DNA of 64,000 bases from Pacificimonas aurantium (lineage in GTDB: Bacteria; Pseudomonadota; Alphaproteobacteria; Sphingomonadales; Sphingomonadaceae), in the NCBI RefSeq assembly GCF_020092905.1, contig NZ_JAGSGB010000002.1:434001-498000 (forward strand). The letters run 5' to 3'. Under the pieces are notes generated by a model. That model was given only the letters and a program-made list of their open reading frames with translations, did not search any database and had not been told where the DNA came from. Below, in pieces: positions 30,790 through 35,072 of this stretch. Both the position numbers and the translations under genes were made by a program. Within the stretch, counting starts at the first letter, position 1, and each line of letters begins with the position of its first letter.

Positions 30790-32082
30790 CTAAATCGCGC
30801 GAAGATCCTCCGGCAGGGCCGGAAGCGCTCCTCCGGCCTCGCCGGAAAGCGGCCCGGCAAGCGGAATCGTGAAGGAGACGACGGTCCCCACGCCCGGCTC
30901 GGACCGTATCTCGAGCTTGCCGCGGTGGCGTTCGACGATGTGCTTCACGATCGCCAGCCCGAGCCCGGTTCCGCCGAGGCGGCGCGAGCGGCCGGCGTCG
31001 ACGCGGTAGAAGCGCTCGGTGAGCCGGGGAATATGCTCGGGCAGGATGCCCTCCCCCTCGTCCCTGACCGAAACGAGGACCGAATTCTCCGCGCGGCGCA
31101 GGGACAAGGTCACCGGCGACCCGCTGCCACCATATTTGAACGCATTCGAGACGAGGTTGCGCAGAACCTGAAAGATCTGGTCGCGGTCGGCGAGCACCGG
31201 CGGAAGATTCGCCTCTGCATCGACAATGAATTCGTGGCCGCCGGCGTCCGCTTCCAGTTCCACGGTCTCCGAAAACTCGTCGACCAGCGCGAGGAGGTCG
31301 GTGCGCGTACGGGGCCGCATCGACTTGTCGAGCTCGACCCGCGAGAGCGACAGCAGATCGTCGATCAGCCGGGTCATGCGACTGGTCTCCTCGTTCATCA
31401 GCCCGAGAAACCGCGTGCGGGCGGCCTCGTCGTCGGCCGCTGCACCCTGAAGCGTCTCGATGAACCCGGAGACCGTTGCGAGCGGCGTGCGCAGTTCGTG
31501 GCTTGCATTGGCGACGAAATCCGCACGCATCCTCTCCGTCGCGCGCACCTGGCTGTAGTCGACGAAGTTCATGAGCAGGCGGTGTTCGTCGATGGGGGCG
31601 ATCCGCAGTCGGTAGGTGCGGCCCGCAGCCGCAAAGCTGTCGAGTTCGCGTACGACCTCCGACCGCTCGCTGATGGCGATATCGACCGCCTCCAGCGCGA
31701 CCGGGTGGCGAATGGCGAGGCGGACATCCTCCGCCGGCACCGTGCCGAGAAGCTCGCGCGCCGCGCTATTCGCGGCCACGACGTCATGCTCGGTCGTGAC
31801 GACGAGAGCGGCGTCCTCCAAGACTTCCAGCCCGATCGTATCATCGGGCAGCACGACCGGCTCGGCAGGCTCGCGCTCCTCATCCTCTTCTTCGCTCGAA
31901 ACGAAGCTCTGGCGCGTGAACAGGCCGGGAAGCAGCATGACTGCGACCGCGGCGGCCACGAAGGCGAGCGCCTGCGATCCCGTACCGGCACCGAAGCCGA
32001 TGAGCAGCAGCAGGCCCGCAACGATGTACAGCCGGGCCGGATATTCAACGAGCATCGCTCTCTTCCATTTTTTGGTATTCAT
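30790..32082 (-). CDS. phoR: Phosphate-regulon sensor histidine kinase PhoR
   Basis: 430 residues. Two membrane helices in the first 55 residues, an acidic linker (SSEEEDEERE), a PAS-like domain (about 80-170), HisKA with phospho-acceptor His195 in NASHELRTPLA, and an ATPase domain with NLVSNAFKYG, DEGEGI and GGTGLGLAIVKHIVERHRG. The lack of a periplasmic sensor domain fits sensing through PstCAB-PhoU. First gene of the operon in this order. Confidence 0.95.
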   Translation of the reverse strand: MNTKKWKRAMLVEYPARLYIVAGLLLLIGFGAGTGSQALAFVAAAVAVMLLPGLFTRQSFVSSEEEDEEREPAEPVVLPDDTIGLEVLEDAALVVTTEHDVVAANSAARELLGTVPAEDVRLAIRHPVALEAVDIAISERSEVVRELDSFAAAGRTYRLRIAPIDEHRLLMNFVDYSQVRATERMRADFVANASHELRTPLATVSGFIETLQGAAADDEAARTRFLGLMNEETSRMTRLIDDLLSLSRVELDKSMRPRTRTDLLALVDEFSETVELEADAGGHEFIVDAEANLPPVLADRDQIFQVLRNLVSNAFKYGGSGSPVTLSLRRAENSVLVSVRDEGEGILPEHIPRLTERFYRVDAGRSRRLGGTGLGLAIVKHIVERHRGKLEIRSEPGVGTVVSFTIPLAGPLSGEAGGALPALPEDLRAI

Positions 32083-32254: not shown

Positions 32255-32851
32255 ATGAACGAGAAGGCTGAAAACGGCGCGGCACAGGATGCCGAACCGG
32301 GCCGTCGCGGTGGCGATGCGCCTGCCGAGCAGCAGGCTATAAACGCGAAGACGGCAAATCGCCGCCGGGTCCTGAAACTCGGCGCGCTCGCGGTACCCGC
32401 CGTGGCAACCCTGTCCCCCTCCATGGCGATGGCAACCTATGGCAGCGGCGGCGGGGGCTGGGGCGGCGGTGGCTCCGGCGGTGGCGGCACCAGCGGTGCA
32501 GCCGTATCGCTGATGATGTGCACCGTGCCGATGCCCTCCTATGTTTCGGAGGACGGCTACCCGGTCGAACAGCGCGACATTTACTACTCGGGCTCGGGCT
32601 ACAAAAAGCAGATGTACACCTACCGGTCCGGACAATGGTGGCGCGTCTACGAAGGCCCAAGCGCGGGCAGCTATTCCGGGCAGGAACTGAAGGACTCCTC
32701 GGAAGCCGGTTGGAGCACGCCGTCCGGTGTGAGCGGCGACGAATATGAGGCCCATCTCAACTATATGTACCGCGTCGGCACACGCGAAATCGAGGGTGCC
32801 GGCCTGACCTGCCTCGTCAGCCTGACCAACAACCTCAATCTTCACATCTGA
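32255..32851 (+). CDS. Glycine-rich, Tat-type exported protein of the HPr-rel-A cassette
   Basis: 198 residues. After a polar N-tail of about 40 residues comes NRRRVLKLGALAVPAVATLSPSMAMA, a twin-arginine-like signal (R-R-R-V-L-K). A Gly-rich tract (about residues 65-85) follows, then a Tyr/Ser-rich domain with two cysteines (MMCTV and LTCLV). I do not recognise the domain. The PqqD-like gene follows 7 nt later, so this is the likely substrate or structural product of the cassette; that is inference from order. Confidence 0.75.
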   Translation: MNEKAENGAAQDAEPGRRGGDAPAEQQAINAKTANRRRVLKLGALAVPAVATLSPSMAMATYGSGGGGWGGGGSGGGGTSGAAVSLMMCTVPMPSYVSEDGYPVEQRDIYYSGSGYKKQMYTYRSGQWWRVYEGPSAGSYSGQELKDSSEAGWSTPSGVSGDEYEAHLNYMYRVGTREIEGAGLTCLVSLTNNLNLHI

Positions 32852-32858
32852 GCCTGGT

Positions 32859-33134
32859 ATGCGCTACCGCCTGAGGGCGGACGAGGTCAGGATCGAACCC
32901 CTGGCCGGGCTGACACTGGCCCATCAGCGCCTGTCGGGCGAGACCCACGTCCTGTCCGAGGAAACGGCTGCGATCCTCGATGCCCTCCCCGAACGCGGCG
33001 GGTCGCCTGCAGAGATCGGCCGTATCTTGACGGAACGGTTCGAGATCGTGGAGGCCGAAGATGTCGGCCTGACCGGGTCGATCGAATCCCGGCTGGAGGA
33101 GCTGCGCGCGCTCGGTCTCGTCGAGCGCGCCTGA
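32859..33134 (+). CDS. PqqD-family protein, HPr-rel-A type
   Basis: 91 residues with the PqqD winged-helix pattern: LTLAHQRLSGETHVLSEETAAILDAL, then GSPAEIGRILTERFEI and a C-terminal LEELRALGLVERA. PqqD folds (RRE domains) usually bind leader peptides and hand them to modifying enzymes. It lies between the Tat-type protein and the HprK-related kinase gene (7 nt gap). Confidence 0.85.
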   Translation: MRYRLRADEVRIEPLAGLTLAHQRLSGETHVLSEETAAILDALPERGGSPAEIGRILTERFEIVEAEDVGLTGSIESRLEELRALGLVERA

Positions 33135-33141
33135 CAGGCAG

Positions 33142-34014
33142 ATGAAACGCGTGCGCCTGCGGATCGGCCCGGCGATATTCGAGCTGCGCTCGCCCTTTCG
33201 TTCGGTGTTGACGGAGGTGGAAGCGCTCTACCGGCGCTACCCGCAAAATCTCGATGGAGAGATTTTCGATTTTTCGGTCACCGGACTGCCGGTGAGCCCA
33301 TGGCGCCGCTTTCTCCGCCCCTCAATAATGTTCGGCGGCGATTTTTCGCTTGCCGACATCGTTCCCGTTGAAAAGCGGCTGGGCCTTCTGGGCTTCGAAA
33401 TGGCCATCAATCTGCAGATGGCGCTGGGCTATCTGCGCCATATCGTCGTCCATGCCGCATCGGCCGCCAAGGATGACGAAGCGATCCTGATCACCGGCGA
33501 GTCCGGATCGGGCAAAAGTACCTTGTCGGCGCTTCTCAGTTACCAGGCCAGGTGGCGGCACATGGGCGACGAGCTTGCACTCCTATCGCTGGAAACGCGT
33601 CCGCTGCTGCATCCTTATCCCAGGCCGATCAGCCTGAAGAACGAGTCCATTCCGGTCATGGAATCGCGCGCGCCGGAGGATCGCTTCGGCCCGTTGCTGA
33701 CCGACACGGTAAAGGGCGATGTGAGACATCTGGTTCCCCCCCAGCGCGCCATCGAACAGATGGACCGCCCCGCCCTACCCAAGCTTGTCATCTGCCCGCA
33801 TTTCGAAGCGGGCCGGGAACCCGCCGTCCGCCGCATGACGGAATCCGAATGCTATGTGCGGCTGTCGACGGCCTCCACCAACCAGCTTCGCCTGGGCGAA
33901 CGGGGGTTCGATGCGATGGTCTCTCTGGTGAAAACCGTACCAGCCTACGACATCAGCTATGGCTCGAGCGAAGACGCGCTGAAGCTGGTCGACGAGCTTT
34001 GGCAGCAGGCATGA
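33142..34014 (+). CDS. HprK-related kinase A
   Basis: 290 residues. The centre holds a P-loop, ITGESGSGKSTLSALL, followed by WRHMGDELALL and PYPRPISLKN, the order seen in HPr kinase/phosphorylase C-terminal domains. There is no HprK N-terminal domain, and no HPr gene is near. HprK homologues in lasso-peptide clusters phosphorylate a peptide Ser, so a peptide or protein target is plausible. It overlaps the nucleotidyltransferase ATG by 4 nt (ATGA). Confidence 0.85.
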   Translation: MKRVRLRIGPAIFELRSPFRSVLTEVEALYRRYPQNLDGEIFDFSVTGLPVSPWRRFLRPSIMFGGDFSLADIVPVEKRLGLLGFEMAINLQMALGYLRHIVVHAASAAKDDEAILITGESGSGKSTLSALLSYQARWRHMGDELALLSLETRPLLHPYPRPISLKNESIPVMESRAPEDRFGPLLTDTVKGDVRHLVPPQRAIEQMDRPALPKLVICPHFEAGREPAVRRMTESECYVRLSTASTNQLRLGERGFDAMVSLVKTVPAYDISYGSSEDALKLVDELWQQA

Positions 34015-35072
34015 CCGGCCCCTCCATGCTGCTGTTCGAGGCTCTGCGTGAACCGGAACGCCTTCTCGCCCTGACCGCGAAGGACTGGAACGGACTGATC
34101 CGCGTCGGCCGGGCAGAACGCCTGCTTGCCACGCTGGGAACACGAGCGGAGGGCCTTGCCCTGCCCGTGCGGGCAGCCGCGATCCTGGAGGAAGCGCGGC
34201 TCGACGCGGAACGCGGGCAGGACCGGATTCGCTTCGAGATAGACCGCATGGCAGAGACCTTGCTTCCGCTCGGATTCCCGGTCGTCCTCCTGAAAGGCGG
34301 CGCGTTCCTGATGGCCGGGCTGTCACCGCTTCCCGGACGGGAGATAGGCGATCTCGACATTCTCGTGCCCCGTGACCGGATCGGCGAGGCGGAACGCACC
34401 CTGCGAGAGGCGGGGTGGATTTCGGTGAAGGCCAGCGGCGGATATGACGACAGCTATTACCGCGAGTGGATGCACGAGCTGCCGCCGCTGGCGCACAGAT
34501 CGCGGGGCAATGTCATCGACCTGCACCATAATGTTCTGCCGCCGACCGGACGGCTGGCGCCCGACGCCGCCGGCATGATCGATCGGGCGGTGCGTCTGCC
34601 CGGCGGGCTGTTCATCTTGTCGCCCGAAGACATGCTGATCCATGCCGCCCTGCACGTCGCCTATGATGGGGATTTCCATGGCGGGGCCCGGAACTTGTGG
34701 GATATCGACCGCCTTTTCCGCGCATTCAGCAGTGCCGATGCGGCGTTTGCCGAGAGCCTTAGGGACACGGCGCGCGCACAGGGGCTCATGCTTCCCGTGC
34801 GGCGCGCGCTCTTTCTGGCACAGGCCCTCTACGGCACGCCGGTTCCCGCCGCGCTGTCGAAGCGAACGGACCCGGTGGACATACTGGCGAAAAGGAAACT
34901 CCAAGGCCGCGACCGCTATGGCCGCCAGCGCACGCCGGTTGCGGATTTCATTCTATACGCCCGTGGTCACTGGCTGCGCATGCCGCCGTTCATGTTGGTG
35001 CGCCACTTGTGGACCAAATGGAGGGCGCGGCGACGTGAAGCGCGGGACGCAACTCGTCGAACCGGTCGATGA
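34011..35072 (+). CDS. Nucleotidyltransferase-family protein (NTP_transf_5 type)
   Basis: 353 residues. The catalytic region shows VVLLKGGAFL, then GREIGDLDILVPRDRIGEAERTL, the GxxGDxDhhV-like pattern of minimal nucleotidyltransferases, with DLHHNVLPP and HAALHVAYDGDF further on. Such proteins accompany HprK-like kinases in peptide-modification clusters. The basic C-terminus (KWRARRREARDATRRTGR) is encoded in DNA that overlaps the convergent gph gene by 83 nt. Confidence 0.85.
   Translation: MTGPSMLLFEALREPERLLALTAKDWNGLIRVGRAERLLATLGTRAEGLALPVRAAAILEEARLDAERGQDRIRFEIDRMAETLLPLGFPVVLLKGGAFLMAGLSPLPGREIGDLDILVPRDRIGEAERTLREAGWISVKASGGYDDSYYREWMHELPPLAHRSRGNVIDLHHNVLPPTGRLAPDAAGMIDRAVRLPGGLFILSPEDMLIHAALHVAYDGDFHGGARNLWDIDRLFRAFSSADAAFAESLRDTARAQGLMLPVRRALFLAQALYGTPVPAALSKRTDPVDILAKRKLQGRDRYGRQRTPVADFILYARGHWLRMPPFMLVRHLWTKWRARRREARDATRRTGR

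Follow-up and report, generated by a model that had tools for sequence, protein, structure and literature searches.

The question raised by positions 32255-35072 of the window, the whole 64,000-nucleotide stretch of Pacificimonas aurantium DNA analysed here, is what a kinase related to HPr kinase acts on when its gene is accompanied by those of a PqqD-like protein, a nucleotidyltransferase and a small exported protein. The window belongs to the order Sphingomonadales and the family Sphingomonadaceae. The original prediction placed a four-gene HPr-rel-A cassette here, and the interval is filled by four open reading frames (ORFs) on the + strand with unchanged coordinates. The first encodes an exported precursor of 198 residues (P0001, 32255..32851), recognised by a profile of its own upstream family and proposed here as the substrate. 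It is followed by a PqqD-like protein of 91 residues (P0002, 32859..33134; TIGR04353, 45.6 bits, cut-off 35), a kinase of the HprK/PEP carboxykinase (PEPCK) fold of 290 residues (P0003, 33142..34014; TIGR04352, 226.8 bits, cut-off 200) and an NTP_transf_5 nucleotidyltransferase of 353 residues (P0004, 34011..35072; PF14907, 145.8 bits, cut-off 31.2). The kinase and the PqqD-like protein both pass the curated HPr-rel-A models, and the adjacent nucleotidyltransferase is what we take to be a further part of the HPr-rel-A definition. The PqqD-like gene and the kinase gene are separated by 7 nucleotides, and the ATG of the nucleotidyltransferase overlaps the kinase stop codon as ATGA.

Sequence conservation and analogy with lasso peptide tailoring make it probable that the upstream exported protein is the dedicated substrate of the HPr-rel-A cassette and that it would be tagged at Ser189.

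Conservation of the upstream gene with the kinase

By its own criterion, the original prediction would fail if the upstream gene did not accompany the other three. Among 196 genomes sampled from the order, 90 kinase loci were collected, which comprise 88 kinases over the TIGR04352 cut-off and two full-length ones slightly under it (197.7 and 187.8 bits); the remaining genomes are counted as lacking the kinase in the sense that they have no full-length match, and short P-loop matches are present in most of them. A precursor profile was trained on ORFs upstream of kinases, ten at the start. By profile search a relative of the precursor lies upstream of the kinase in 82 of the 90 loci, usually as the gene just ahead of that for PqqD; it lies up to about 1.3 kb further off in L032 and L040, and L005 has precursors on either side of the PqqD gene. 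Relatives of the PqqD-like protein and of the nucleotidyltransferase are each present in 88 of the 90 loci, and the two loci without a nucleotidyltransferase relative are both at contig ends. Relatives of all four genes recur in the same order in most of these loci, and the four-gene set of the window is thus more than a chance neighbourhood. Two precursors within one cassette locus were seen in L005, L057, L064 and L084.

All eight genomes whose kinase locus has no upstream precursor encode a copy elsewhere. One of these loci (L081) ends at a contig end, and the precursor of G172 lies about 4 kb upstream of the kinase, outside the stretch first fetched. No precursor was found in two kinase-less genomes examined alongside these exceptions. 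Across all 196 genomes, the precursor (expectation value E <= 1e-6) and the full-length kinase both occur in the same 90 and neither occurs in the other 106 (Fisher p ~2e-54, calculated with the 88 over-cut-off kinases and uncorrected for kinship). The presence of precursors in the kinase genomes is partly circular because the precursor alignment A2 holds 50 of the 86 precursors found upstream of kinases; their absence elsewhere is not circular. When P0001 was left out of the profile, it still scored E = 4.3e-15 among 8,929 ORFs, with the best non-family ORF at 0.39, and the part after residue 60 alone scored E = 1.4e-5. Gene conservation and co-occurrence therefore support the earlier proposal of a modification system that acts on a small exported protein.

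Matches to named relatives give a similar picture. The kinase search returned at least 71 loci, 27 of which (L135-L161) hold distant P-loop relatives. Among the matches listed, 36 of the remaining 44 loci have a precursor nearby, and the eight without one comprise a contig end (L110), three Sphingopyxis-like loci (L117, L119, L123) and four loci outside the order (L129, L132-L134). Of the named relatives listed, those closest to the kinase are from sphingomonads; the window genome's own records may be missing from this list.

The genes of the cassette are not always together. In genome G053, a precursor and a PqqD-like gene share one contig (PqqD profile E 5e-16; precursor stretch L239, 4755-5512, - strand) and the kinase and nucleotidyltransferase genes lie on a separate one (L004). 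This arrangement fits binding of the precursor by the PqqD-like protein, since a leader and its binder would be expected to stay together. Eight genomes (G029, G046, G052, G055, G070, G073, G087 and G099) carry further precursors on another contig (L228-L235), suggesting that one enzyme set may serve several substrates. Most of these extra precursors stand beside an RNA polymerase sigma factor-like gene, and several are accompanied by a short YciI-like gene as read by eye.

The candidate substrate and its putative modifying enzymes

P0001 has a twin-arginine signal, a Gly-rich stretch and exactly two Cys residues, C89 (32519..32521) and C186. The twin-arginine core of the leader, R36-R38 (32360..32368), stands in the sequence RRRVLKLGA. 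The 50 precursors in A2 are hypervariable, with a mean column identity of 15%, and their only invariant residues are R37, C89, C186 and S189; R36 and L40 are present in at least 90% of them. C186 and S189 belong to a terminal motif, T185-C186-L187-V188-S189 (32807..32821), of the form [ST]CxxS, in which Ser189 is the proposed phosphorylation site. Nine more residues follow Ser189, and the precursor does not end in Ser.

This motif recurs far beyond A2. The distinct precursors of the order and of the named set together number 114 and fall into 18 clusters at 40% identity; all 114, from all 18 clusters, carry [ST]CxxS inside the last 60 residues, and 110 carry it inside the last 25, versus 45 of 4,984 control ORFs. 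The motif Cys is followed by a mostly hydrophobic residue, a variable residue and the Ser, after which L, I, F or V is most common. Immediately ahead of the Cys, 133 of 135 sequences have Ser or Thr, and five to nine residues come after the motif Ser in 94 of 111 precursors of the order. The middle of the precursor ranges from short to long and is rich in Gly, Ser or Asp. Outside the window's family, many precursors have long Asp runs mid-sequence, possibly metal-binding (L034, L046, L060, L068, L090 and others).

The upstream protein had been described as carrying a Gly tract and two Cys. Both Cys are invariant, in A2 as well as in A3, an alignment of P0001 with 31 of 36 named precursors. The tract is not shared: none of the 31 other A3 rows has it at the position found in P0001, and the Gly tract was accordingly rejected as a conserved core. 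A lipoprotein reading of P0001 was rejected as well, the end of the signal having no Cys, and so were matches to SepX/GlpR and UCR_Fe-S_N with scores far under the cut-off. P0001 has no credible NCBIfam or Pfam family, and when 50 precursors were scanned, every model that matched did so with a single member: five NCBIfam models with one precursor apiece (best E 9.6e-5) and a lone Pfam model, likewise with one (0.0037). A structural model of the L107 precursor predicts a confident small domain (predicted local distance difference test, pLDDT, 87-92) followed by a low-confidence tail with the CxxS motif (blocks at 59 and 50), as would be expected of an accessible linear motif. No structure in the Protein Data Bank matched this model at E <= 0.001 (best 2.3).

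The kinase belongs to the PEPCK/HprK fold superfamily, as judged by its modelled fold and its P-loop. The model of P0003 (pLDDT 96.8, predicted template modelling score 0.92) aligns over its whole length with PEP carboxykinase 1aq2 (Z 16.5, root-mean-square deviation 4.5, 272 residues) and more locally with HPr kinase 3tqf (Foldseek E 2.7e-5), and the best match of the kinase-family profile among solved structures is HprK 1ko7 (E 7e-5) over the P-loop region. H104 (33451..33453), K125 of the P-loop GESGSGKST (33496..33522) and D143-E144 (33568..33573) are invariant in 39 of the 90 kinases aligned as A1 (39/39) and in P0003 with 39 of the 44 named kinases, aligned as A4 (40/40). H104, K125 and D143 align to HprK residues, H104 being the counterpart of the conserved His, and the Asp-Asp of HprK is Asp-Glu here. 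The nucleotidyltransferase retains K95-G96, D114-x-D116 (34350..34358) and D170 (34518..34520) in all seven sequences aligned (A5), D170 being presumably the third carboxylate. Among solved chains its profile matched only one, at E 0.95.

Two reviews report that HprK-type lasso kinases phosphorylate a C-terminal Ser, the one conserved feature of precursors that are otherwise unlike each other, that they require a His-Lys-Asp-Asp set, and that PsmN subsequently decorates the phospho-Ser with hexoses, the route being described as unsettled (PMC8498205, PMC9266682). In the light of these reviews, the likeness to lasso tailoring noticed in the original prediction is sound, the kinases targeting a C-terminal Ser and PsmN the phosphate. 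Because the cassette contains the same three kinds of enzyme and because the two Cys and the Ser are the only invariant residues in the mature part of A2, we propose a sequence of leader binding, Ser189 phosphorylation, capping and export by twin-arginine translocation (Tat). The PqqD-like protein would bind the twin-arginine leader in the cytoplasm and present the precursor. The HprK/PEPCK-fold kinase would then phosphorylate the invariant Ser of the [ST]-C-x-x-S motif, which is Ser189 in P0001, and the NTP_transf_5 protein may add a group to the phosphate, either a nucleotide or a hexose as reported for PsmN. The modified precursor would finally leave the cytoplasm through Tat, losing its leader by a cut behind an A-x-A site, and once in the periplasm C89 may pair with C186.

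Neighbouring genes and candidate substrates outside the order

The genomic neighbourhood suggests that the cassette has a role with exopolysaccharide. When the best match per genome to exosortase A (XrtA) was compared, a match of at least 177 bits was found in 84 of the 90 kinase genomes (75 over the cut-off) versus 52 of the 106 others; the six kinase genomes without a match are 62-96% complete. Outside the window's family, XrtA lies 4.1-14.5 kb from the cassette, start to start, in 35 of the 35 genomes that have both on one contig; 17 further genomes have XrtA on a different contig and six have none. Within the family, XrtA is on the same contig in 16 of 32 genomes, at least 51 kb away, and on a different contig in the other 16. 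Twenty chosen neighbours of four loci include XrtA amidotransferase, XrtA glycosyltransferase, FemAB and tyrosine autokinase families. From this linkage and these neighbour families, the cassette resembles an accessory to exopolysaccharide loci which in sphingomonads has its place elsewhere.

In the window itself, the cassette is flanked by a divergent phoR-like gene and, as read by eye, a convergent HAD-like gene. The PhoR-like sensor kinase gene (30790..32082, - strand) is regarded as context outside the pathway. A PhoR-like gene (E <= 1e-20) lies upstream on the opposite strand, as in the window, in 45 of 59 loci (L032-L090), and it also stands beside the unlinked precursor in five of the five loci examined (L236-L240). 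It is thus the precursor, rather than the enzymes, that keeps phoR company. The Kordiimonas-type extra precursor copies (L228-L235) have no PhoR-like neighbour. In L046, the neighbouring proteins include a PhoB over the NCBIfam cut-off and a protein whose best family is PhoR, at 301.7 bits (cut-off 334.2). A Pho-box scan of 81 precursor upstream regions gave eight with at least 11 of 14 matches versus about two expected from single-base shuffles, several of those on the phoR strand resembling one another and possibly being phoR's own site; the best score in the window is 9 of 14.

The cassette is not confined to the order. Of 398 genomes sampled from the phylum, 61 contain a TIGR04352 match over the cut-off, 13 of these 61 being from the window's order, and so do 27 of 274 genomes of the class of one positive from the phylum sample. 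A filter for an upstream ORF with a twin-arginine-like signal retained 50 of 59 loci outside the order; among the nine filtered out, L197 can be read as type i and L134 as type ii, the two substrate types into which most of the upstream proteins fall. The 50 retained proteins comprise 24 of type i, assigned by a terminal CxxS, 22 of type ii and four others. In 19 of the 24 type i proteins the motif is CWxS. Most type ii proteins have C-[ST]-x-S-G...S-G-N-x-S...[ST]-P-G-[YFW] near the mature start and a longer C-terminal region; the type ii loci fall among L129, L132, L134, L175, L176, L190 and L203-L224. At the other extreme, the type i mini-precursors of 74 residues (L218) and 82 residues (L199) have little besides the leader and the motif, and L218 has little after the signal beyond GSACISCNASLI, with the cleavage site placed by eye.

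Of the 87 kinases placed in a tree, the 25 of type ii (L134, L173 and L208 assigned to that type by eye) make up a single clade (support 100/92) that they share with three unclassified kinases and that contains no type i kinase. Substrate type therefore tracks the history of the kinase. The kinase of L209 clusters with those of type i; the L209 precursor terminates in AAWASIVERGP, where Trp occupies the position of the motif Cys.

Alternative readings and known systems

Several observations weigh against tagging of the exported protein at Ser189. The invariance of the motif is partly built in because members were recruited with profiles that contain it, and the invariant residues might be structural, as in a disulfide, instead of marking a modification site. 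The co-occurrence carries no correction for phylogeny, and genes that are linked come and go as a unit. Lasso kinases target the very last residue, whereas the Ser here mostly has five to nine residues after it, and the second Asp of their His-Lys-Asp-Asp motif is Glu here. Phosphoryl transfer to a protein is itself drawn from the family, because the best whole-length fold match is PEPCK, a small-molecule enzyme. The Tat-signal model TIGR01409 matched only one of 50 precursors at E <= 0.01. Finally, the terminal CxxS is not universal for HPr-rel-A, since 22 of the 50 selected upstream proteins outside the order are of type ii.

Some of these points lend themselves to a different site on the same substrate. 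The cassette may nucleotidylate or phosphorylate the Ser or Thr beside C186 or another residue, with CxxS serving recognition or the C89-C186 disulfide. A hydroxyl residue almost always precedes the motif Cys, both Cys are invariant, and type ii substrates do without a terminal motif, so that this alternative deserves some weight; we still regard it as unlikely, because all 114 profile members have Ser at +3 whereas the residue before the Cys alternates between Ser and Thr, and because HprK-type lasso kinases are reported to target a C-terminal Ser (PMC8498205, PMC9266682). A more distant alternative takes the precursor for a periplasmic partner or sensor and gives the kinase and the nucleotidyltransferase an intermediate of the exopolysaccharide pathway, a sugar or a lipid, as their target. 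The tight linkage to XrtA and exopolysaccharide genes outside the family and the whole-length likeness to PEPCK would suit such chemistry. However, the core of the precursor shrinks to about 12 residues outside the order (cleavage placed by eye), the type of substrate goes with the kinase tree, and PqqD-like proteins imply a peptide substrate, all of which make a sugar or lipid target improbable. A bolder proposal that keeps Ser189 is that the two enzymes furnish the CxxS Ser with a sugar-phosphate or a nucleotide, that the exosortase A exopolysaccharide machinery extends this group or couples polysaccharide to it, and that the exported protein serves as anchor or primer of the matrix, which would be a new protein-glycan linkage. 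We hold this to be rather unlikely. If it were true, the middle of the carrier would be free to diverge with the leader and CxxS fixed, and in the window's family, where the cassette lies away from the exosortase A locus, it would be retaining its substrate nonetheless, a suggestion that is equally speculative.

Two further readings detach the cassette from the exported protein or treat it as a relic. The family is named after HPr kinase and the genome has an HPr gene, which might suggest that the kinase acts on HPr or another phosphotransferase system protein and that its gene neighbours are unrelated cargo. The genome, however, encodes a separate HprK, over the Pfam cut-off, about 1.6 kb from HPr on another contig (C1), P0003 has no Hpr_kinase_C (PF07475) among its 17 Pfam matches at E <= 1, and the presence or absence of the full-length kinase matches that of the precursor in all 196 genomes. 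Action on HPr was rejected as the main explanation on the first two of these points, and we consider it extremely unlikely. The PqqD-type binder, kinase and nucleotidyltransferase are also the set found in phosphoglycosylated lasso clusters, as described in the reviews (PMC8498205, PMC9266682), and in four loci outside the family the cassette has an asparagine-synthase-like amidotransferase nearby, so that a lasso peptide cluster decayed by loss of its cyclase and protease was considered. That amidotransferase meets the XrtA-system model TIGR03108 in three of the four loci (L046 is partial and under the cut-off) and never the lasso cyclase cut-off. As in the original prediction, which saw no lasso cyclase here, the genome has none over the cut-off; its best match reaches 205.9 bits (cut-off 525) and lies on contig C7 beside XrtA, away from the cassette, and such sub-cut-off matches also occur in nine of 14 control genomes. 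No B2 protease stands beside the cassette, where only the four genes lie between the flanks, and no genome-wide B2 search was made. The intact cassette moreover recurs across several families, and the precursors are mostly longer than 120 residues with a twin-arginine leader. Decay from a lasso cluster was rejected on the identity of the amidotransferase and the lack of a cyclase over the cut-off, and is very improbable.

Modification of the exported protein at Ser189, which we favour, would carry the kind of Ser phosphorylation and phosphate capping seen in lasso peptides over to exported proteins and tie the system to exopolysaccharide loci. In the open-licence papers searched, no paper on HPr-rel-A or on the HprK-related kinase was found, and no substrate is described there for either named family. 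What is new, within the libraries searched, is the substrate family with its candidate Ser and the link to exosortase; the HPr-rel-A system itself had already been named. Neither the C-terminal CxxS motif nor that link figured in the original prediction. A substrate family with an invariant candidate site makes this orphan system testable.

Among known systems, the closest likeness is to the tailoring of lasso peptides such as paeninodin (PadeK), the ThcoK and SyanK systems and pseudomycoidin (PsmK/PsmN), which, according to the reviews, share an HprK-like kinase, a later-acting annotated nucleotidyltransferase and a PqqD-type binder with the cassette. This comparison is by kind of enzyme. The window cassette differs in its twin-arginine leader, its long hypervariable mature part, a Ser that is near the end but not at it, and Asp-Glu for Asp-Asp. 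The cassette thus may work like lasso peptide tailoring and is no lasso cluster. Its conserved RR leader and CxxS motif and the presence of a PqqD-like protein are traits reminiscent of ribosomally synthesized and post-translationally modified peptides, with leader binding being putative.

As an HPr-rel-A system, it matches TIGR04352 (HprK_rel_A) and TIGR04353 (PqqD_rel_X) over their cut-offs with a nucleotidyltransferase alongside; beyond the named system, it has an upstream family without an NCBIfam or Pfam model, and the CxxS motif and exosortase A linkage found here. With HprK and PEP carboxykinase the kinase shares the fold and a P-loop with the H-K-D residues, and it differs from HprK in the missing Hpr_kinase_C match, in a genome with its own HprK and HPr. 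The GAK system, which we take to be the system of HprK_rel_B, and SynChlorMet (ScmC) have an HprK-like P-loop in common with it, and their models match P0003 over the P-loop region only (15.2 bits, cut-off 200, and 22.2 bits, cut-off 125, respectively). PEP-CTERM proteins carry a C-terminal hydrophobic helix. Outside the window's family, the cassette has the XrtA/PEP-CTERM exopolysaccharide system as its neighbour in the genome; in contrast to PEP-CTERM proteins, the precursor ends in CxxS without such a helix.

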